A DNA stretch of 64,000 bases from Haladaptatus salinisoli (GTDB lineage Archaea; Halobacteriota; Halobacteria; Halobacteriales; Haladaptataceae): positions 248,001-312,000 of the forward strand of contig NZ_CP085329.1 of the NCBI RefSeq assembly GCF_020614375.1. The letters are read 5' to 3'. A program made the position numbers and the translations under genes. The notes under the pieces were generated by a model. That model did not search any database and was not told the origin of the DNA. It worked only from the letters and a program-made list of their open reading frames with translations. Each line of letters begins with the position of its first letter. Position 1 is the stretch's first letter. This document shows, in pieces, positions 8,437-48,539 of the stretch.

Positions 8437-9672
8437 TTATGCTAGGTCGACGTAATCCGGTCTGACCCAGGCGAGTGATGCGTTAATCTGCACGAAAGCA
8501 GATTGTTGAAGTAAATGGGTCGTAGCATCGCCCCGCTTAATCAGATTTGTCGCTGGATCACGAGCAGTTTGCCAAATTTGATCAGCATATTTCTGCATGG
8601 CCTTGAGGTATTTCGGATTGTTTTTGACGTTCCGTAGCAGAAGCAGATTCTTGAAAAAGATCGCGCTAAATGCCATGTCTTCTTCAAAAAGACGGTTTTC
8701 TCTCCCGAAGTATTCCAGTGCTCGATCAGCAATCCTTTCGGCTTCAGCAAGATGATATTCATCTTTAGTAACTTCGTACAGAAGAACGTTTACGCCGATC
8801 ATCGTTCCCTGGTTATAAGTGAAAATCCACTTCGTAATCGTGCCGTCCATATTGACGTGATCCCAATACAGACCATTCGGAGCCTGTAGATGTTCATTAA
8901 CCCAATTATACATACGCTTAGACCAACTCAAGTAATACTGTTTCCGCTCGTCATCATCCGATAATTGATAGAGATGCAACCCAAGTTCCGCTCCGGGTGC
9001 GTTCGAGACGGTGTTACGGTCATCACTCCAGTCGGCCTGCGTCCAGAATACGCCGCCAGGCTTGGGATGCGAGTGATCGTCGTCCCATCCGTGGACTACT
9101 AAGTCGAAAATTTGACGCGCTCGTTTCAGAAATCGTCGGTCATCCGTCATTCGGTACAACTGAATGAGCTCGAGACCGATCCACTCGTTATCGTCATAAA
9201 AGATGTCCCCGCCACCTCCGTAGGGCGGTCGGACGTACGAATCATATCCTTTCGGATCTTTGTTCGGGTTCCAATAGAGTTCTAATGCGTCAAGACGATC
9301 TTGCACATCATCGGCGTAGTCCCCGCCGATTTTCCCATTCCGAATCCCAAATAAATCAATGGTACCCGCCATCGCTTGCGAGAACGGCCAAACGTAGCTA
9401 TACGGATTATCGGTTCGGTTCGGATACTCCTCTAAATAGAGTTTGGAATCTTCCTCGTAAAAGTACTGCTGAAGGGCATCGTATGCGGTTATCGCACGGT
9501 TAACGTTCTCTAATCGACTTACAGACTTTGAATGGCCTGATTTTGCGGCTGAATCCCTCGCCCGGACGTTACCGGCGACCAGTGGTAATGCAAAAGAGGT
9601 CGCAACGCTCGTTCCGGTCACGCTCTGCCTCATGAACTCTCTTCGTGAAGATAGAAATCGATTCTTTCCCAT
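8437..9672 (-). CDS. Glycoside hydrolase family 76 (endo-alpha-1,6-mannanase type), Tat-exported
   Basis: The 411-aa protein has a Tat signal (SRREFMRQSVTG, twin arginine at 10-11) and an (alpha/alpha)6-barrel of the GH76 type. The expected catalytic Asp-Asp pair is at residues 160-161 in IFYDDNEWIGLELI. Other family signatures are GGVFWTQ, NAPGAELGLHLY, GLYWDHVN and FTYNQGTMIGVNVLLYE. GH76 enzymes cut alpha-1,6-mannan backbones such as yeast mannan. The gene lies downstream of the TrmB regulator on the same strand, and the ABC importer is divergent from TrmB. A 16-bp element identical to one before the ABC operon lies 57 bp upstream of its start. GH88/GH105-type hydrolases share the fold but not these motifs. 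Confidence 0.85.
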   Translation of the reverse strand: MGKNRFLSSRREFMRQSVTGTSVATSFALPLVAGNVRARDSAAKSGHSKSVSRLENVNRAITAYDALQQYFYEEDSKLYLEEYPNRTDNPYSYVWPFSQAMAGTIDLFGIRNGKIGGDYADDVQDRLDALELYWNPNKDPKGYDSYVRPPYGGGGDIFYDDNEWIGLELIQLYRMTDDRRFLKRARQIFDLVVHGWDDDHSHPKPGGVFWTQADWSDDRNTVSNAPGAELGLHLYQLSDDDERKQYYLSWSKRMYNWVNEHLQAPNGLYWDHVNMDGTITKWIFTYNQGTMIGVNVLLYEVTKDEYHLAEAERIADRALEYFGRENRLFEEDMAFSAIFFKNLLLLRNVKNNPKYLKAMQKYADQIWQTARDPATNLIKRGDATTHLLQQSAFVQINASLAWVRPDYVDLA

Positions 9673-9744: not shown

Positions 9745-9815
9745 CCATCTTTGGGATTCTTATGGGGTTTCATCCGCCTGAATCTGCGGAGCGAATTACG
9801 GTAACGGTCCCACAA

Positions 9816-10907
9816 CTATTCTGCTTCTTCAGAGAATTCGATCGATTCGATGGTCAACCGCTGTAGTTCAATATCCTCGACTTGCGGAAGCCATCCACCG
9901 ATACTGTAAGTGTTCTCGCCATCATCAACAAATATCGAAACCTGGCCCGAAACCTCGCTTAGTGACGGATAAGCGTTGTCAGTAATAGGACCAGAGAAAA
10001 TTACATCGGTGATCTGTCCAGCTATCCGTCTCTTTTCGCCCGATATCCTATCAAATCCTTGTGCGGAGAGTTGAATAGTCGCCCCTTCGTGGAACAGTGG
10101 TGCGATATCCGCAACGCATTGCCGAATGTTCACATACGTGATCGGAGGCGAAGTATCATGGACGGAATAGACCGTTTCGAAGGAATCCCATAGTGTCGTC
10201 TGGTAGTACCAATGGAAAACGTACGTAAGCGATCTGTTATCTGCGATGATACCAAATTCAGTTCCATCACCGCGTTGTGGAGCAAAACAAACTTTCGAGT
10301 GATCTACGATGATAACGAACGGAGCAAGGAACTCACGAAAGCACACTTCTGACGTAGTATTCTCGAAGTCGAGTTCACGTTCAGAGGGAAGAGAACCATC
10401 TCTCGACGGGGAAAGAGAGAGCTTAATAAAAATGTCCCGATCATAAGCTTCGTGGAGCACGGGACGGAGTTCGTGGTACTGTTTGGGCAAGACGGCTAAC
10501 CTCACCTCATTTTCCGCGGTCCGAATGTAGTGCTGAGCGCGTTCAATTACCGTCTCAAGTCGTTTGACCACGGTCAAATTGTTCTCGGTAAGTTCGGGTG
10601 CATCCCACAGATCATCGAGTTCATCAGCCGTGTCTGCAAATGACTCGGCTCGTTGGCGAAGATCTGTAATGACTGCATCAGGGTCTAAAACCCGTGCCCG
10701 CAAGTTATCTTGCTTGTAAATCTCGATGTGACCGTCGGATTCAAGTCCCCTGAGGACATCGTAGACGCGGGATTTTGGCACGTTGCTCGCGTTAGCGAGT
10801 TCGATAGCGGAGGCTGATCCACGTTTTAAAATTTCGACATAAACTTCCGCTTCATACTGCGTAAAACCTGCATTCTGTAGCGCCTGCAGGGGTGTCGTCT
10901 GCTGCAT
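9816..10907 (-). CDS. TrmB-family sugar-responsive transcription regulator
   Basis: The 363-aa protein has an N-terminal winged helix (about residues 8-80; GFTQYEAEVYVEILKRGSAS, then NVPKSRVYDVLRGLESDGHI), a short linker helix, and a long C-terminal domain of the TrmB sugar-sensing type (DUF1724-like). TrmB proteins bind sugars such as maltose, trehalose or glucose and control transporter and metabolic genes. It lies between the GH76 gene (same strand, downstream) and a divergent ABC sugar importer, so these are its most likely targets. Start ATG 10907 is immediately followed by the canonical HTH, so no extension is needed. The effector is unknown; mannose or manno-oligosaccharides are a reasonable guess from context. 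Confidence 0.88.
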   Translation of the reverse strand: MQQTTPLQALQNAGFTQYEAEVYVEILKRGSASAIELANASNVPKSRVYDVLRGLESDGHIEIYKQDNLRARVLDPDAVITDLRQRAESFADTADELDDLWDAPELTENNLTVVKRLETVIERAQHYIRTAENEVRLAVLPKQYHELRPVLHEAYDRDIFIKLSLSPSRDGSLPSERELDFENTTSEVCFREFLAPFVIIVDHSKVCFAPQRGDGTEFGIIADNRSLTYVFHWYYQTTLWDSFETVYSVHDTSPPITYVNIRQCVADIAPLFHEGATIQLSAQGFDRISGEKRRIAGQITDVIFSGPITDNAYPSLSEVSGQVSIFVDDGENTYSIGGWLPQVEDIELQRLTIESIEFSEEAE

Positions 10908-41124: not shown

Positions 41125-41781
41125 AGCTCGTCAATTTCCGCCTCCGTATTGGAATTCCACCACCATTAGCTTACGGAGTTCTTTGGCGTTTCTCGGAAGT
41201 GTCCCATCAACGGCATTGCGGACGGTAACAATGGTACGTTGACTCGACGCGCAACTGATCGCTCGTTCCCACTAGCTTTGATCTCCCCGAAGCCCACGAT
41301 GGGAAGCTGCAGTCGCTGCCACGGTGATGCGGATTTCAAGCGCGTATCCCGTCTGTCGGCGGAGTCAAGCGATATCGAGCCTCGTTCCCTGCCAGAATCA
41401 TTTTGGTGTGGCTCGCTGTAACTCAGACTGCTATGGAGTCGGTGAGGGTCCGTCCCTGGATAAACAGGTGATGGCGACGAACGCGGTCTGTTTGTCGCAC
41501 GGCGATAACGCGGATTCCGACGGGACCTCAATGGCCGGGACACAGTGCTACGAGGGGGAAACGAAAGCCCCCCGGTGTGTCGCCGGTTCCCTCCGGGTGC
41601 GGGTTAAAACCTTGAAGGCCGGAATAGCCGAAACCCGGACACCGAATTCCACGGTCTATAGGCTGTGGGGGTCAAGGTCGACGAATAACCAAATCATGAC
41701 AGATAGAACACAATCGATGAAACTGAACCGTCGGTTCCGATTACGGGTTGATTCGGTAAACACGTTAGGAGGTGATGGTGA
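41125..41781. other. Intergenic region before the sulfation operon, unexplained
   Basis: About 650 bp with no supported gene. A rightward frame running to 41785 encodes a cysteine-containing peptide (MAGTQCYEGETKAPRCVAGS, LRVRVKTLKAGIAETRTP). This could be a decayed end of a transposon-encoded TnpB-like protein, but the match is weak. The segment at 41500-41620 is GC-rich with runs of C and G. A strong ribosome-binding site closes the region. Confidence 0.4.
41767..41776 (+). promoter_or_regulatory. Strong Shine-Dalgarno sequence of the sulfotransferase gene
   Basis: AGGAGGTGAT ends five bases before the GTG at 41782. It matches the anti-Shine-Dalgarno almost completely and fixes the GTG as start. 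Haloarchaeal first genes are often leaderless, so this hints at an upstream transcript start well before the gene or a lost upstream cistron. Confidence 0.6.
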
Positions 41782-43005
41782 GTGAGTCTTGAAGAACCGC
41801 CAAGCGATCTCCGAGACCAGGCCAGGCAGAACTACGAACACGTGAAAAACGAGGTTGTCACGGAGGGGAAACAATCGATTCTGACGAAGTACCAAGTTGA
41901 CGACTTTGATAGCGTACTGCTTATCGTGACGGCTCCGAGAGGGGGCAGTAGTCTTCTTTTCGATATCCTTCGACACCATGAAGGAACATGTAGCCTCGAT
42001 GGCGAACACGACCGATGGTACACTCTGAACGGGATCTGTTATCCGGCGTTCGAGTCCGACGTCCTTCCGGCCGACTTCGAGTCGTTCGATAGGGAAAAAC
42101 TCCTGACGGATCTCCTCGCCGAAGTCGGTGCAACCGAACGATCCGGCGACCGAACGCATCGTGTGGATAACGCGCTCGTCCGGCTCCCGTTGCAGTTCCC
42201 CAATCGGGAGCTCCCATACGAGCAGATACACGAAAGGTTGCTCGCGGGAGAATCGCTCAATGAGATACTCGAGGAGTTCGGAATCCCACCGCTGCAATAC
42301 GATGAATATGCGGTGAAAGACGCGAGCAGTCCGTTCGAAACTGAAACGATCGAGGACCGACCGTTCGTCTCCTCGCACAGTCACAAGCGCGGTCTCACGG
42401 CGGACGACTTCGAGCGGACGCTCGTCTTGAAAGCGAGCGGCGATGCATACCGACTCCCATGGATACGCGAGCAGCTACTTCCCGAGACTGACGTCAAAGT
42501 CGTTCACCTCACACGGAATCCAGCAGCGTCGATCAACGGTCTCTACGACGGGTGGCGGCTGAACAGGGGGTTCCAGACGTACAACGTAGGCGATCTTAAT
42601 CTCGAAGGATACAACGGCTCGCTGTGGTGCTACGATCTCCCGCCGGCCTGGGTTAGCGAGGGGAAACTCATCGACGTCTGCCTACTCCAGTGGGCCCAAG
42701 CCCACCGCCATATCCTCGATGGCCGCGACGCGTTCGAGGACGTCCTTCGGGTCCGGTTCGAGGATCTTCTCACCGACACCAGCTCCACTATCAAAGAGAT
42801 CGTCGAGTTCGCCGATCTCGGCGAGTCGGCGCTGCTGTCCGAGAACGTCGAGGACCCCAATAAGGTGATGACGACGAAGGAACCGAGACACGCTCGCTGG
42901 CGAGACAGGGAGGACCTCGTCAAGAGCGCACTCAATCGAGCCGACGAGACGTATACCGAGGTGGTCGAGGAACTGGAATACACGGAGGAATCGGAATGGA
43001 TCTGA
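41782..43005 (+). CDS. PAPS-dependent sulfotransferase
   Basis: The 407-aa protein has the 5'-phosphosulfate loop TAPRGGSSLLFD (about residues 50-61) and the 3'-phosphate motif VVHLTRNPAASINGLYDGWR (about 240-260). These place it in the P-loop sulfotransferase family using PAPS as donor. The acceptor is unknown; glycans, lipids or small molecules are possible. Start GTG 41782 is supported by a strong Shine-Dalgarno sequence. Its stop overlaps the start of an 80-aa ORF, which in turn overlaps the APS kinase fusion that would supply PAPS. The three genes look translationally coupled. No signal peptide is seen, so it acts in the cytoplasm. Confidence 0.85.
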   Translation: MSLEEPPSDLRDQARQNYEHVKNEVVTEGKQSILTKYQVDDFDSVLLIVTAPRGGSSLLFDILRHHEGTCSLDGEHDRWYTLNGICYPAFESDVLPADFESFDREKLLTDLLAEVGATERSGDRTHRVDNALVRLPLQFPNRELPYEQIHERLLAGESLNEILEEFGIPPLQYDEYAVKDASSPFETETIEDRPFVSSHSHKRGLTADDFERTLVLKASGDAYRLPWIREQLLPETDVKVVHLTRNPAASINGLYDGWRLNRGFQTYNVGDLNLEGYNGSLWCYDLPPAWVSEGKLIDVCLLQWAQAHRHILDGRDAFEDVLRVRFEDLLTDTSSTIKEIVEFADLGESALLSENVEDPNKVMTTKEPRHARWRDREDLVKSALNRADETYTEVVEELEYTEESEWI

Positions 43006-43238
43006 GCGAAGCAGCAAAGGACGACAGCAGCGGGACGACTCGCGTCGACGTCAAGACGACCGTGGAGATCGACGACAAGAACTTCGCGATCATAGCTGAC
43101 GAGGTGATACTAATGCCCAAGGACACACCGAATGCGGAGTCGAAACTGGCCGAGGCGTGTGATGTCGAAATCACCACCGTCGATGAGATTTGGAAAGAAG
43201 CAGGTGGGCTCGCCTGTCTCGCAGGGGGGGCAACTTAA
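42996..43238 (+). CDS. 80-aa protein coupled between sulfotransferase and APS kinase genes
   Basis: The ATG at 42996 overlaps the sulfotransferase stop by 10 bases and its TAA (43236-43238) shares a base with the next ATG (TAATG). The double overlap suggests a real gene. The second half (FAIIADEVILMPKDTPNAES, KLAEACDVEITTVDEIW, KEAGGLACLAGG) resembles the C-terminal end of amidinotransferase/arginine-deiminase-fold proteins, where a Cys in a GG-x2-C-L context is catalytic. A whole such fold needs over 250 residues, so this is either a fragment kept for another purpose or a chance likeness. Function unknown. Confidence 0.55.
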   Translation: MDLSEAAKDDSSGTTRVDVKTTVEIDDKNFAIIADEVILMPKDTPNAESKLAEACDVEITTVDEIWKEAGGLACLAGGAT

Positions 43239-44092
43239 TGCCGGGAGAAACCACATGGCTCTTCGGGTTGCCATGTTCTGGAAAGACGACGCTCGCCGAG
43301 GGATTAATCGGCCCGAGTACGGTACATTTGGACGGAGATTATCTTCGGGAGACCCTCAACTCTGATCTCGGGTTTTCGAAGGAGGATCGAACTGAGAACC
43401 TCAGACGGGCCGCTGGAGTTGCACAAGCGTTGAACGAACAGGGGTTCGATGTCGTCGCGTCGTTCATCACCCCGTATCGTTCCCAGCGAGAACTGATCGC
43501 CGAGAAGATTGAGAATGTCTCGTTCATCTATGTCAACGCACCCGTCGAAGTGTGCGAGGAACGTGATGTGAAGGGAATGTACGAGAAGGCTCGTAAGGGC
43601 GAGATCGAGGGCTTTACCGGTATTGATGCGCCGTTCGAGGAGCCAGAGGGAGATATCGAACTCGAAGTTCGAACGGCGACGCGCTCGAAGGAGAAGAGTA
43701 TTGAGGAGATTAACGCAGAACTGGACCTCAAGTTCAACCCAAGCCACATCTTCATCGGTCGCTGGCAACCGCTCCACAACGGCCACCGGACGATCATCGA
43801 TTCAGCCGCTGACAACGGAAAGAACGTCATTATCGCTATCCGCGACACCGAACTTAGCGAGAAGAACCCACTCACCGCACAGGAGCGCCGGAAGCTAATC
43901 GAGGACGTCTACGAGGACCATCCGAACGTCGAGACGATGATTATTCCGGATATCGATACCGTCGCTATCGGACGGGACGTCGGGTACTCGGTCGTTTCTG
44001 TTCCCCAGGAGGTCGCAGAGATCAGCGGAACCGAGACACGCGAGGAGTACGAGAAGAGCGAACTCCTCACAGGGCAACACTTAGAGGATTGA
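43238..44092 (+). CDS. APS kinase fused to NMNAT-like nucleotidyltransferase
   Basis: From ATG 43238 the protein has 284 residues. Residues 1-165 are an adenylylsulfate kinase: Walker A GLPCSGKTT (10-18), LDGDYLRETL, GFSKEDRTENLRR, FIYVNAPVEVCEERDVKGMY. Residues 168-284 are a small nucleotidyltransferase of the HxGH class: FIGRWQPLHNGHRTIIDSA, ENPLTAQERRKLIEDVY and a C-terminal ISGTETRE. The kinase makes PAPS from APS and ATP. The second domain could adenylylate sulfate as an alternative ATP sulfurylase or act on another substrate, which cannot be decided here. The gene is coupled to the sulfotransferase. The start at 43190 is rejected because the Walker A spacing favours MPGETTWLFG. Confidence 0.85.
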   Translation: MPGETTWLFGLPCSGKTTLAEGLIGPSTVHLDGDYLRETLNSDLGFSKEDRTENLRRAAGVAQALNEQGFDVVASFITPYRSQRELIAEKIENVSFIYVNAPVEVCEERDVKGMYEKARKGEIEGFTGIDAPFEEPEGDIELEVRTATRSKEKSIEEINAELDLKFNPSHIFIGRWQPLHNGHRTIIDSAADNGKNVIIAIRDTELSEKNPLTAQERRKLIEDVYEDHPNVETMIIPDIDTVAIGRDVGYSVVSVPQEVAEISGTETREEYEKSELLTGQHLED

Positions 44093-44117
44093 GTGATTCG
44101 TCAACCATATCTCAATC

Positions 44118-44861
44118 ATGAATAGGGGAGGGCAACTGTTTGATCAATCCGAATTGCAAGACGCGATAGACACGGGAGAGCTGATCGCGTGGAAGAAAAA
44201 GAGATATCTCGAGTTCAGGAAAACGATGCGGGATACTCGTTATCCATGTCATTTCGCAGTGAACGCTGAACGTAACGATTCCGCTCGTTACCTCTTCGCC
44301 GGGGACGCTCGTGATCGTGATGCTCTCTTTAAAGTGAGAGAGGGATTACGACGATATCTCGAACGGTATCAGTCAATAGCCAAACGAACGACCTTAGTGA
44401 TATTTTTCAAGCCTGGGGACAGGGATCAAAGCGAACAGGAATATCGTGATCAGTTCTGGGAAGTTATAGAATTCCTGAACAAACGAGATCCGGAACCGTG
44501 GCCTAGCGACATCCCTGAGGATCCAAACGATCCAGAGTGGGAATTCTGCTTCGCTGGAGAACCGATGTTCATCGTTGGCCGCGCTCCGTTTTATACGGAG
44601 CGCAAGAGTAGGTATACGCCATACGGACTAGAAATAACGATTCAGCCGCGTAGAACGCTTGATGATATCAGTGGAGATACGATGGAAGGTCGGCATGCCC
44701 GTTCGGTCATCAGAGATCGGTTGAAGGACTATGATGATATCACTCCGCATCCTGACATTGGAGATTACGGCGACCCCAACACTCGGGAATGGAAACAATA
44801 TCTACTTCCAACATCGAACGAGGAGAGTTTGAACGAATTTCCCTTCGAAATAGAGACATAG
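44118..44861 (+). CDS. YqcI/YcgG family protein
   Basis: The 247-aa soluble protein matches the YqcI/YcgG family: RYPCHFAVNAERNDSARYLF, TTLVIFFKPGDRDQSEQEYR, DPNDPEWEFCFAGEPMFIVG, YTPYGLEITIQPRRTLDDI and YGDPNTREWKQYLLP. The biochemical role of the family is unknown; conserved Cys and acidic residues (EFCFAGEP) could be catalytic. It starts 26 bp after the APS kinase fusion on the same strand, so it is probably the last gene of the sulfation operon. This is an unusual partner for such genes. Confidence 0.85.
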   Translation: MNRGGQLFDQSELQDAIDTGELIAWKKKRYLEFRKTMRDTRYPCHFAVNAERNDSARYLFAGDARDRDALFKVREGLRRYLERYQSIAKRTTLVIFFKPGDRDQSEQEYRDQFWEVIEFLNKRDPEPWPSDIPEDPNDPEWEFCFAGEPMFIVGRAPFYTERKSRYTPYGLEITIQPRRTLDDISGDTMEGRHARSVIRDRLKDYDDITPHPDIGDYGDPNTREWKQYLLPTSNEESLNEFPFEIET

Positions 44862-45038
44862 TAATTGTAGGGATACTTGATTAGTTGATCAAGCTAGACG
44901 GTTTCATCGACACAGCACGTGATCTAGACGTGCGTCCCGAATCGTCCCCCTCTGATTACGGTCAATCGACGTGCCGTCGTCTGTTTGCAATAGAGCAGAA
45001 CAATGGAGCTATGCTCTCTTGCTTCACTATTCCTACCA

Positions 45039-45722
45039 ATGGCGGACTACGTCGACTTAACTCACGAGTTTCGAGACGGGATGCCGGGGTTCAGGCTCCA
45101 GAACGAAGACGGAAGCTATACTGAGTTCACCGCAGAGATCCAGCCGTTTCTCACACACGAGCAAACCCGTCCGAAGTACGATGGCCGGGCTTCATTTGAG
45201 ATCACCGAGATGCGCTTTCAGACCTCGATCGGGACGTATCTCGATGCTCCCAGCCACCGTTTTCCCGAGGCACGCGACATCTCCGAACTCGATTTGACCG
45301 ATCTTATCGCCGATGGTGTCGTTGTTGATGTCCGCGACCGGGACCCGTACGAACCGGTCGACGAAGCAGTGCTCCCGCGCGATGTTGACCTCTCCGGAAA
45401 GGCTGTGCTGTTCGAGTTCGGTTGGGACTCCCATTGGGGCACCGATCAGTACCGCGAGTACCCGTACATCTCGGAGTCGGTGATTGCTCGCTTGGTTGCC
45501 GAGGACGTTTCGTTAGTCGGGGTCGATACTATCAACATCGACGATGATCGGAATCCCGACCGCCCCGCACACACGACTCTCCTCAAAGAGGAGATTCCCA
45601 TCGTGGAGAACCTGTGTGGATTGAAGCCTCTCCGTGATCGTCGGTTCCGGTTCTACGCGATTCCTATCAAAGCCGCCGAAACCGTCACAATGCCCGTCCG
45701 AGCATTCGCCGAGATAACGTAG
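45039..45722 (+). CDS. Cyclase (kynurenine formamidase-like) family metal-dependent hydrolase
   Basis: From the ATG at 45039 the protein has 227 residues. It belongs to the cyclase family, with YVDLTHEFRDGMPGF at the N-terminus, TSIGTYLDAPSHRFPEARDI at the metal site and LVGVDTINIDDDRNPDRPAH further on. Canonical members have H-x-G-T-H-x-D-x-P-x-H. Here His residues are partly replaced (TSIGTYLDAPSH), so metal binding may be altered. Relatives hydrolyse N-formylkynurenine or cyclic amides and lactones. An upstream ATG at 45003 would add 12 residues without family likeness. It is single and convergent with the M24 gene. Confidence 0.78.
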   Translation: MADYVDLTHEFRDGMPGFRLQNEDGSYTEFTAEIQPFLTHEQTRPKYDGRASFEITEMRFQTSIGTYLDAPSHRFPEARDISELDLTDLIADGVVVDVRDRDPYEPVDEAVLPRDVDLSGKAVLFEFGWDSHWGTDQYREYPYISESVIARLVAEDVSLVGVDTINIDDDRNPDRPAHTTLLKEEIPIVENLCGLKPLRDRRFRFYAIPIKAAETVTMPVRAFAEIT

Positions 45723-45819
45723 CGGACAAACTCTGATCCGTGCTTCCCTAACGCTTGTTTCGCTACGCGTAGTGCATTATCAATGAAGCCGAAGAGAACG
45801 ATTTCCGTTTTAGAGCTGT

Positions 45820-46992
45820 TCAAACAATCAGGTCATCAATGTCTCTGGGATAGTAGGTTAGGGTTTCAGTTCCGTCATCAGTTACGAGAACGGTATCCGA
45901 GTGTCGAAACCCACCGATTTCCGGGACATAAAAGCCAGGTTCGACAGTATACAGCTCACCTGACGAAATCGTCCCCTCGTACTCGCGATCTAAGAAGGGA
46001 CGTTCATGCCCCTCCATTCCGATGTTATGCCCAACATGGTGCTGGGTGTACTGCCGAACGCCTTGTTCCTCGTAGTAGTTCATCACGACCTCTTCGACGG
46101 TACTGTATTCGATTCCAGGTTCGATCGTGTCAATGGCGATTTCCTGTGACTCTCGCATAATTGCAAAATAATCTCGCTGGTCATCCGACGGTTCGCCGAC
46201 GATGAGAGTTCGTTCGAGTTCAGTCGTATAGCCACCCACATTTGGTTTTACGATGGTGACAATGTTATCACCCTCCTGAATCTGCGTTGTTTGATCGACG
46301 CTGTGAGGGCGTGCAGTAACAGAGCCTGTCGTGAAGTTGCATTGGAGTGGACTCGCCCAACTTGTCATCTCGTACCGCTCACCGAGCGTATCCAGCAGTA
46401 CCTTGGTGCCTTCGGCTTCGACTTCAGCACTGATCGTAACAGGTCGTCTTCCTGGCTCGAGCTTCTCTTGCAACAATCGATGGCCATAGTGTGCCCACGT
46501 ACTTGCTTCACGGACGAGTTCGATTTCAGTCTCGGACTTTCGCTCTCGCATTGTCGTCACATAATCTTCGACGCCAACAGAACCCGAAATGAGACTCGAG
46601 AGTGATGGTCCAGTATAGCCATTTCGACTCGGGCTTCCATCGCTATCGACAGCGATTAACGCATCTGTAAGCCCAAGATTATCACACATCTCGACGACCC
46701 GTTCCATCGGATTACCTTGTGGATAATCGAAGTAGACGTGAACATCGTCAATCAAGAAATCGTCACGCTCGGCGTGCTCTTGTTCTAAACGCGGGACGAC
46801 AATCTCGATCTGGTCATCGACCACTCCGACCGCGCACGGTCGCTCGGTCGGGAGATGATACATGCCAGTCACGTACTGGATGTTTAGTGCGTTGAACAAC
46901 ACAACGCCATCGTAGCCATCGCCGTGCGCAGTTGTAAGCAGTGATTCTACTCGTTCTTGGTACTCGTCTTTAGAAATACGGAGTTTATCCAT
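45820..46992 (-). CDS. M24-fold peptidase/creatinase-like hydrolase
   Basis: The 390-aa protein has an N-terminal creatinase domain (about 1-150) and a C-terminal pita-bread domain (160-390) with HHVGHNIGMEGHERP and TVEPGFYVPEIGGFRHSDTV. Classical M24 aminopeptidases carry D, D, H, E, E metal ligands. Here the first region reads IVKPNVGGYTTELERT where metallo-forms have Asp, and the last ligand region reads HSDTVLVT instead of EDTVLVT. The protein may therefore be creatinase-like and metal-free, or bind metal differently. Its start is 137 bp from a divergent sodium:solute symporter, which suggests uptake and hydrolysis of one substrate. Confidence 0.82.
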   Translation of the reverse strand: MDKLRISKDEYQERVESLLTTAHGDGYDGVVLFNALNIQYVTGMYHLPTERPCAVGVVDDQIEIVVPRLEQEHAERDDFLIDDVHVYFDYPQGNPMERVVEMCDNLGLTDALIAVDSDGSPSRNGYTGPSLSSLISGSVGVEDYVTTMRERKSETEIELVREASTWAHYGHRLLQEKLEPGRRPVTISAEVEAEGTKVLLDTLGERYEMTSWASPLQCNFTTGSVTARPHSVDQTTQIQEGDNIVTIVKPNVGGYTTELERTLIVGEPSDDQRDYFAIMRESQEIAIDTIEPGIEYSTVEEVVMNYYEEQGVRQYTQHHVGHNIGMEGHERPFLDREYEGTISSGELYTVEPGFYVPEIGGFRHSDTVLVTDDGTETLTYYPRDIDDLIV

Positions 46993-47129
46993 ACGGAGAG
47001 CAAGATACGAGACACGGTAAACTTATTTTCAACCCCGCGATATGGCATGCTGTGAGCAGAAAAAACATGATCGAACAGAGATGCTACGGAAAACCCAACG
47101 AAGAAGAAATTCCAATGGAGAATTGATTT

Positions 47130-48539
47130 ATGCCTGTTCAACCAGACAGTACACTGCTCTATCCAGTTATAGGATATTTGGTAGTTATGAGCGGAATTGG
47201 CATCTGGGCCTATGAGAAAGCAGATACAGCCGATGATTTTCTTCTTGCGGGGAGAAGTTTAGGATCCGTAATCATTGCCGGGACACTACTGGCGACGTGG
47301 ATGGGTTCGGGCAGTATTACAGGTGGAGGTAATTCAATCGCATACCAATTTGGAATTTGGCCTGCGATTTTGCTTGGAACTGCTGCACTCATCGGGGTCG
47401 GGGTTCTACGCGTGTTAGCGTCACAGATTCGAGGATACGACACGTATACGATCCCAGAGATTTTAGACGATGGAATTGGAAAAGAAGCCAAGGCTATCGG
47501 CCTTGTTGTTATCGCGGTTGCGTACGTTGGTATCGTTTCATACCAGTTCATTGGCTTCGGATTTATTCTGAACGTTACCACGGGGATCTCCGTTGAGACT
47601 GGAACACTCATTGCTGCCGTCATGATTATCGGGCTCGCAATGTTAGGAGGACTGATGTCTGTTGCATACACCGATGCAATCAGTGCATTTTTGATGCTCA
47701 TTGGTCTCTTCATCGGATTACCCTTTGTGCTTGGAAGTGTCGGGGGATGGGACTCCATTACGGCGCAAGTCCCCCAAACGGCAATGGACCCCTTCGGAAC
47801 GTTAACTGCGTTGCAATTCTTTGGTTACTGGGCGCCAGTGCTTCTCTTAATTCTTGCAGACCAGAATATGTACCAACGGATCGTCGCTGGCCGGTCTGAC
47901 GAGGGAACAAATCGAGGGATGATAGGATGGTTCGTTGGTGTTGCTGTTGGCGGCATCGTCATCCCGATAATCGCATTTGCCGCTCGCGTTCGATTTCCAA
48001 ATATTGATCCAGGAATGGCGATGATTTCGATGACGACTGTGATTCCCCGTTGGGTAGGGGGAATACTTCTTGCTGCGGCGTCCGCATTCATCATTACGAC
48101 TGGGAACTCCTATCTTCTCTCTGCAAGTACAAATGTCTCCCAGGATTTATATCGCGGATTCATCAACCCAGAGGCATCGGACAAGCAGGTGTTCTGGCTC
48201 ACACGCATCACCGTTGTCGTACTTGGCGTCTTTGCGTTTATTCTCGGACAGTATTTTCCAACAGTGCTCTCAATTCAAATCCTCGCCTATACCGCATATG
48301 GAGCAACAATCACGCCAGCATTATTTGCGATCTTCCTCATGCGAGACCGATTAACTAAAATCGGTGGTGTCACTGGTATGTCCGTCGGGTTTATCATAAC
48401 GATTTTGTGGGATACGGTTCTTGGACAACCATACGAACTGAATGCTGTGATTGCTTCCGCGCCGATAGCGGCAATTACGATCGTTGTGGTGAGCTGGATG
48501 ACTAATCCGACAACAAAAACAGATCCGATGATTGAATAA
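47130..48539 (+). CDS. Sodium:solute symporter (SSS) family transporter
   Basis: The 469-aa protein has about 13 helices and SSS signatures: DDFLLAGRSLGSVIIAGTLL, ATWMGSGSITGGGNSIAYQF, SYQFIGFGFILNVTTGISVE and ITTGNSYLLSASTNVSQDLY (Na2-site Ser-rich helix). SSS carriers import sugars, amino acids, urea or organic acids with Na+. Its divergence from the M24-fold hydrolase points to a nitrogenous or peptide-like substrate. The nearest SSS branches cannot be decided by eye. The gene is complete. Confidence 0.88.
   Translation: MPVQPDSTLLYPVIGYLVVMSGIGIWAYEKADTADDFLLAGRSLGSVIIAGTLLATWMGSGSITGGGNSIAYQFGIWPAILLGTAALIGVGVLRVLASQIRGYDTYTIPEILDDGIGKEAKAIGLVVIAVAYVGIVSYQFIGFGFILNVTTGISVETGTLIAAVMIIGLAMLGGLMSVAYTDAISAFLMLIGLFIGLPFVLGSVGGWDSITAQVPQTAMDPFGTLTALQFFGYWAPVLLLILADQNMYQRIVAGRSDEGTNRGMIGWFVGVAVGGIVIPIIAFAARVRFPNIDPGMAMISMTTVIPRWVGGILLAAASAFIITTGNSYLLSASTNVSQDLYRGFINPEASDKQVFWLTRITVVVLGVFAFILGQYFPTVLSIQILAYTAYGATITPALFAIFLMRDRLTKIGGVTGMSVGFIITILWDTVLGQPYELNAVIASAPIAAITIVVVSWMTNPTTKTDPMIE

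Follow-up and report, generated by a model that had tools for sequence, protein, structure and literature searches.

To our knowledge, sulfate is activated by two types of ATP sulfurylase, Sat and CysDN. In bifunctional synthases of 3'-phosphoadenosine 5'-phosphosulfate (PAPS), such as human PAPSS, Aquifex 2gks and Thiobacillus 3cr8, a kinase acting on adenosine 5'-phosphosulfate (APS) shares one chain with an HxxH nucleotidyltransferase (NTase). Sulfation can also be organized as a cassette. In the adipostatin cluster, according to excerpts of PMC12135136, a sulfotransferase lies beside its own PAPS-making genes, an APS kinase and a two-subunit sulfate adenylyltransferase. Here we describe a cassette in the 5.0-Mb genome of the haloarchaeon Haladaptatus salinisoli, found in a stretch of 64,000 nucleotides (the window). 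As in the adipostatin cluster, a sulfotransferase gene is next to a predicted source of PAPS, but that source is a single fusion of an APS kinase and a compact HxGH NTase. Like the bifunctional synthases, the fusion joins both domains in one chain. Its NTase differs from theirs in being only about 115 aa long, C-terminal and NadM/CoaD-like, with neither the QxRN motif nor a PF01747 score. The titles and opening lines of abstracts listed by searches of the open-access PMC literature yielded no description of this fusion or of the viral NTase–kinase pairs discussed below.

We propose the following pathway. The C-terminal NTase would form APS from ATP and sulfate, and the N-terminal kinase, judged by its family, would convert APS to PAPS. 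The sulfotransferase would then transfer the sulfo group from PAPS to an acceptor. A YqcI/YcgG heme enzyme encoded downstream would N-hydroxylate the guanidino compound that is, or becomes, this acceptor. As a whole (mobile sulfation cassette, alternative PAPS synthase, guanidino acceptor), this reading of the sequences falls just short of an even chance. APS formation by the NTase is its best-supported functional element, at about even odds.

Were the NTase to make APS, it would be a third type of ATP sulfurylase, virus-borne and roughly one-third as long as Sat, and the inference of PAPS capacity from genomes would have to change. Such an enzyme could account for sulfotransferases in genomes where no ATP sulfurylase is recognised. 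A more specific version is possible but doubtful. In it the NTase is a third, largely virus-borne sulfurylase class that derives from a NadM/CoaD-like enzyme, with no kinship to CysDN and only a remote one to Sat. Whether encoded separately or as a domain, it would work with an APS kinase to supply PAPS to transferable sulfation modules, and the haloarchaeal product would be an N- or N-O-sulfated guanidino metabolite formed once a heme enzyme has N-hydroxylated the guanidino group.

The cassette and its spread

The original prediction of four genes in one direction, including a fused APS kinase–HxGH NTase, is borne out by open reading frame (ORF) analysis, Pfam and NCBIfam. All four lie on the + strand. 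The first (41782–43005, 407 aa, GTG start) belongs to the sulfotransferase families, scoring 35.9 bits for Sulfotransfer_3 (PF13469; cut-off 27) and 28.9 for Sulfotransfer_1 (PF00685; cut-off 22), and is a probable PAPS user. A close solved structure was sought for it and none was found (best E 0.028). An 80-aa ORF follows (42996–43238), and then the fusion itself (43238–44092, 284 aa). Residues 1–167 of the fusion (43238–43738) belong to the APS kinase (CysC) family, with 152.3 bits for APS_kinase (PF01583; cut-off 21.1, residues 3–138) and 158.3 against the apsK equivalog-domain cut-off of 138.7 (TIGR00455). The candidate APS-forming NTase starts at residue 168 (43739–44092). It is supported by family alignments, AlphaFold2 models and a match to CTP_transf_like (PF01467, 43.2 bits, cut-off 21, residues 171–233). 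Compared with a bifunctional PAPS synthase, which carries an APS kinase and a Sat domain in one chain, the fusion has the kinase half but its other half fails PF01747. The last gene (44118–44861, 247 aa) encodes the YqcI/YcgG protein. Overlaps of 10 bp between the first two ORFs and 1 bp between the second and the fusion, together with a gap of 25 bases (26 had been predicted) before the YqcI/YcgG gene, suggest that the four ORFs form one transcript.

This layout had been predicted to be unusual for archaea. A profile search instead found the fusion at 21 places in 20 of the 391 genomes of the class, a count in which related genomes are not thinned, and with this many carriers the layout is a recurring cassette, not a singular one. 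The 20 other fusions are 73–92% identical to that of the window. Close relatives of the cassette come exclusively from haloarchaeal records, and the fusion is present in eight haloarchaeal plasmid records. The sulfotransferase and the fusion are conserved together, while the flanking genes vary between genomes. From these comparisons we propose that the sulfation cassette is self-contained and moves horizontally.

The codons of the cassette are under purifying selection. Against four relatives, dN/dS is 0.077–0.134 for the NTase domain, 0.094–0.168 for the kinase domain, 0.151–0.158 for the sulfotransferase and 0.132–0.158 for YqcI. The 80-aa ORF gave 0.31 in the one pair tested, which is not neutral despite its reading as a remnant (see below). 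Recurrence in 20 of 391 genomes, cohesion of the cassette amid differing flanks and purifying selection together indicate that the fusion did not arise by chance.

APS kinases and known ATP sulfurylases

In profile searches with cut-offs, the window genome has no Sat match and neither CysN nor CysD over cut-off, so the predicted absence of a classical ATP sulfurylase stands. Nineteen of the 20 fusion carriers likewise lack Sat; the exception (G337) has a separate Sat–APS kinase pair. CysD over cut-off is missing from all 20 carriers. Sat is, however, rare throughout the class, being present in 11 of the 391 genomes and absent from 380, and CysN over cut-off occurs in none of the 391. The carriers' lack of Sat is therefore uninformative by itself, and we rejected it as stand-alone evidence for a sulfurylase function of the NTase.

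The partners of the kinases are more telling. Stand-alone APS kinases occur in at least 10 places in the 391 genomes, in a search that scored up to six candidates per genome and could miss further ones. Nine are directly beside Sat, and the tenth (G211), in a genome without Sat, is very divergent. Sat thus accompanies 9 of 10 stand-alone kinases versus 1 of 20 fusion carriers, and the canonical APS kinase of this class has either Sat adjoining or an NTase attached. No probability was put on this comparison because related lineages were not thinned.

Haloarchaeal Sat–APS kinase pairs resemble the cassette in that they can share a row with a sulfotransferase-like ORF, as in G180 (L050), where such an ORF (identified by eye), Sat and an APS kinase are in one row. 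They differ from the fusion in having a separate, full-size Sat of 382–389 aa. Their kinases are also distinct: in a tree of 27 kinases, which includes that of G211 (L039), a genome without Sat, eight Sat-linked haloarchaeal kinases form a clade with 100/99 support, apart from the fusion kinases. The row nearest the fusion kinases is viral (L080), but the branches are long and the support is weak (88/49). In one further genome (G383, L048 1033–2190), Sat has an assimilatory setting, between ORFs that by eye resemble sulfite reductase and PAPS reductase; the class search listed no APS kinase there.

A different source of APS has to be weighed here. In this explanation APS comes from another cellular enzyme that has escaped recognition, and the NTase is a regulatory or nucleotide-binding appendage of the kinase. 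Excerpts of PMC11980604 describe sulfated N-glycans in Halobacterium salinarum, and no mention of PAPS or a sulfurylase was found in them. The sulfate donor of these Halobacterium glycans is not explained by the class searches for Sat (11/391) and for CysN over cut-off (0/391), so an unrecognised source of APS or PAPS may exist in the class.

A relative of the fusion from Microvirga lotononidis (L047, 29.5% identical) bears on the same question. It lies between a nodH-like ORF and cysD/cysN (nodPQ-like), in surroundings that by eye are a nod locus, with CysD over cut-off beside it. Its NTase retains both histidines (FHESH, GLDLGY, SPTAVQ) but has lost the arginines of GRxVGY and SxTxxR, which are near-invariant in the family. 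Such partial decay is expected from redundancy, because an ATP sulfurylase is present. An NTase that has partly decayed where its kinase has an ATP sulfurylase at hand also fits an appendage. This is a single case, and the decay does not establish a loss of activity; together with the neighbouring CysD, it argues slightly against APS formation by the NTase.

Other observations disfavour the appendage. An alignment of 33 rows (A4, made without those of phage AhaSv and Microvirga) shows little or no variation in HxGH, in GRxVGY or at the S and R positions of SxTxxR. The NTase domain has a lower dN/dS than the sulfotransferase, and most viral NTases have a gene of their own next to that of the kinase. 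We consider an appendage distinctly unlikely.

Two points of the original prediction bear on this. Of the fusion carriers surveyed, 19 of 20 have neither Sat nor CysD or CysN over cut-off, to be set against the rarity of Sat throughout the class and the CysD of Microvirga. Linkage of cysDN to PAPS synthesis, which was named as refuting the idea, exists in that one distant relative and not in the carriers.

The NTase domain and its viral relatives

Neither sequence nor fold makes the NTase Sat-like. In profile comparison it matches NadM at 98.7% (E 2e-16) versus 22.5% over 33 columns for Sat, and on this basis we rejected direct descent from Sat. CoaD/PPAT heads the list of a fold search, NadM appears from rank 18 and Sat-type entries follow further down (3cr8 at rank 31, 1jhd at rank 50); no match reaches E 1e-3. 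The comparison of C-terminal domain structures that had been suggested thus finds its nearest folds in CoaD and NadM, with ATP sulfurylases ranked below them. The QxRN loop of Sat is absent from the window NTase, which has GRWQPLH at that place. In Sat, excerpts of PMC3779200 report, QxRN binds the sulfate of APS, whereas the contact made by the GRD loop is to the ribose and not to the sulfate. The Sat motif order HxxH, GRD, SGTxxR is present in the window fusion (HNGH, GRD(VGY), SGTETR), but HxGH and SGTxxR are common to other NTases and not specific to Sat. Residues 245–248 are the worst part of the AlphaFold2 model. The window NTase has no match to the ATP-sulfurylase family PF01747 (cut-off 24.3 bits) even at E≤1. 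Apart from the motif order, these points count against a sulfurylase. Across the NTase family, matches to PF01747 at E≤1 occur in 23 of 35 members (best 1e-4) versus none of 20 NadM controls, and GR(D)xVGY distinguishes the NTase from NadM. Since the domain is NadM/CoaD-like, lacks QxRN and fails the Sat score, its role as an ATP sulfurylase would be a non-orthologous one that arose in the NadM/CoaD branch, outside both Sat and CysDN.

The same fold results could place the fusion in NAD or CoA metabolism, as a nicotinamide mononucleotide or phosphopantetheine adenylyltransferase joined to a kinase. This is very improbable. Scores are far below the curated cut-offs for NadM (TIGR01527, 36.1 vs 181.2) and CoaD (28.4 vs 103.3). 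Besides the cassette NTase (154–166 bits with the NTase profile), a second, NadM-like locus (38–44 bits) exists in all four carriers tested, and the neighbours of the cassette NTase are sulfotransferases.

Beyond haloarchaea, the NTase has relatives in many viruses. The counts below refer to the best 80 of 593 relatives, that is, the closest only, and include some near-copies. Most viral NTases are encoded on their own, as proteins of about 100–180 aa with the motifs GR[WY]QP[LW]H.GH, RD..xxNP, GRxVGY and S[AG]TxxR. A gene of the APS kinase family precedes the NTase in 78 of the 80 loci, usually immediately upstream or with one gene in between. In the remaining two, the NTase motif is 387 and 25 bases from a contig end. 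Both domains are fused in phages as well. The phrog_10255 'kinase' matches residues 9–272 of the window fusion across both domains in the same order. By match, the fusions of Xanthomonas, Stenotrophomonas and Clavibacter phages are of this type, but they are 27–30% identical to the window fusion and by eye have a shortened kinase. A BFVD fold search with the window fusion gave as best match a 231-aa 'APS kinase' of Ralstonia phage phiRSL1. Run at E≤1e-14 against the phyla of a Prochlorococcus record (194 genomes) and an Aminicenantes record (199 genomes), without a positive control in these runs, the NTase profile found nothing; the same profile found cassette NTases in other genomes.

Sulfotransferases accompany the pair in part of the viral loci. 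Among 65 ORFs near the NTase, Pfam identified 16 APS_kinase, 6 Sulfotransfer_3, 6 Sulfotransfer_1 (possibly the same ORFs) and 3 DUF2061 matches, whereas none of these families is in the list for 65 distant ORFs, which gives 25 of their 31 families. The loci compared were 17 of the 24 non-redundant ones from viruses, the other 7 having less than 2.6 kb upstream. A hidden Markov model built from three viral sulfotransferases, which detects close homologues only, matched near ORFs in 26 of the 80 loci, its three seed loci and several near-copies among them, and none of 422 far ORFs. Pfam confirmed sulfotransferases in L106, L104 and L116. ORFs that look sulfotransferase-like by eye had no Pfam match at E≤0.01 in L117, L170 and L084, and one under cut-off in L096. 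Sat over cut-off occurs in none of 39 virus, phage and plasmid records, which may be fragments, and CysD among them only on the Microvirga plasmid. Sub-threshold matches to PF01747 occur in 11 of the 39; in L121, L101 and L097 the match is the NTase gene itself.

These loci also give some grounds for a different chemistry. Many lack a sulfotransferase within the sequence piece examined. By eye, nearly all partners are short kinases without RD-KGLY/FTGID, and their substrate may differ from APS; both points weaken a sulfurylase assignment. Such short genes are nevertheless assigned to APS_kinase by Pfam (the 16 of 65 near ORFs above), and canonical kinases are found near the NTase in L080–L086, L088, L091, L093, L095 and L096, some of them near-copies. 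The NTase might instead transfer an adenylyl or cytidylyl group to another small acceptor, a phosphate or an oxyanion, and 3'-phosphorylation of the product by the kinase would then yield a donor that resembles PAPS but carries another group. In Campylobacter capsule synthesis, an APS kinase homologue acts on CDP-phosphoramidate. Besides the shortened kinases, the NadM/CoaD-like NTase without the sulfate-binding QxRN speaks for such an acceptor. Speaking against it, the haloarchaeal kinase domain is over the APS kinase equivalog cut-off, and sulfotransferase genes are repeatedly found beside the pair, not only in archaea but also in some viral loci and in Microvirga. We regard this alternative as rather unlikely. 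The proposal that the HxGH domain takes the place of an ATP sulfurylase is therefore supported in part, by the kinase/Sat contrast, the viral pairing and the neighbouring sulfotransferases, and opposed by the kinship to NadM/CoaD and the missing QxRN.

Two further genes are seen in the viral loci. A small HAD-type phosphatase gene lies between kinase and NTase in L104 (9598–9948) and L085 (6519–6884) by Pfam, and in L102, L110, L112, L116 and L126 by eye. It is conceivable that it removes 3'-phosphoadenosine 5'-phosphate (PAP). A DUF2061 membrane protein is encoded beside the APS kinase in L106 (10323–10541, Pfam) and L094 (3961–4206, by eye), and by eye DUF2061 forms the N-terminal part of the kinase ORFs of L084, L085, L088, L091 and L096.

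The second gene, YqcI/YcgG and the acceptor

The 80-aa ORF had been called unknown and could have been a new small protein. Comparison with full-length relatives rules this out and identifies it as a remnant of a gene for a probable guanidine-modifying enzyme. The gene is intact in four cassettes and encodes 286–288 aa: L063 (8745–9602) and L064, which are the two copies in G195, L065 (G337; 8518–9375) and L066 (G197; 9753–10616, − strand). Approximately the first 13 and last 50 residues are retained in the window ORF, and in the other 17 cassettes the gene is eroded or without match. The full-length protein is related, weakly yet consistently, to dimethylargininase and arginine dihydrolase (E 1e-12 and 3.6e-6), aligning over about 220 residues in the four cassettes, whereas the window gene is a mere remnant. 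It is under all curated cut-offs (PF02274, 21.0 vs 22.8; NF045660, 48.4 vs 340).

The fourth protein scores 249.9 bits for YqcI_YcgG (PF08892; cut-off 27) and is under the equivalog cut-off for GntA of guanitoxin biosynthesis (NF041366, 53.9 vs 145 bits). Its nearest solved structure is AglA of argolaphos biosynthesis, a member of the same family (E 5e-39), to which residues 16–234 align. The heme Cys44 of AglA aligns to Cys44 of the window protein and is kept, but the neighbours of the window gene are sulfation genes. Excerpts of PMC12866846 describe guanidine N-H hydroxylation by YqcI/YcgG proteins. Family score and heme-ligating cysteine make the window protein a probable heme N-hydroxylase of a guanidino group.

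The two genes are distributed in a complementary way. A genome-wide search found no YqcI in the three carrier genomes with an intact second gene. Each of the 17 other carriers has at least one YqcI, in the cassette; it also occurs in 13 of 22 non-carriers. In G338 and G361, YqcI lies divergently upstream, adjoining a partly deleted copy of the second gene. YqcI and the guanidine-modifying enzyme therefore seem to replace one another in the cassette. By this distribution, YqcI/YcgG would have replaced an older guanidine-modifying enzyme in the window, leaving the 80-aa ORF. Because both alternative enzymes point to guanidino groups, the acceptor of sulfation is suggested to be a guanidino compound. 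Sulfotrehalose was also considered as the product, and nothing tying the cassette to it was found in the excerpts consulted.

Downstream of the cassette (45003–48539) are ORFs that by eye resemble the cyclase family, an Xaa-Pro peptidase and an SSS transporter, types seen adjoining the cassette in none of the annotated relatives. Upstream, the predicted operon start at 41767 is the first base of a Shine-Dalgarno-like run, AGGAGGTGAT (41767–41776, + strand, read directly), which precedes the GTG start of the first gene at 41782.

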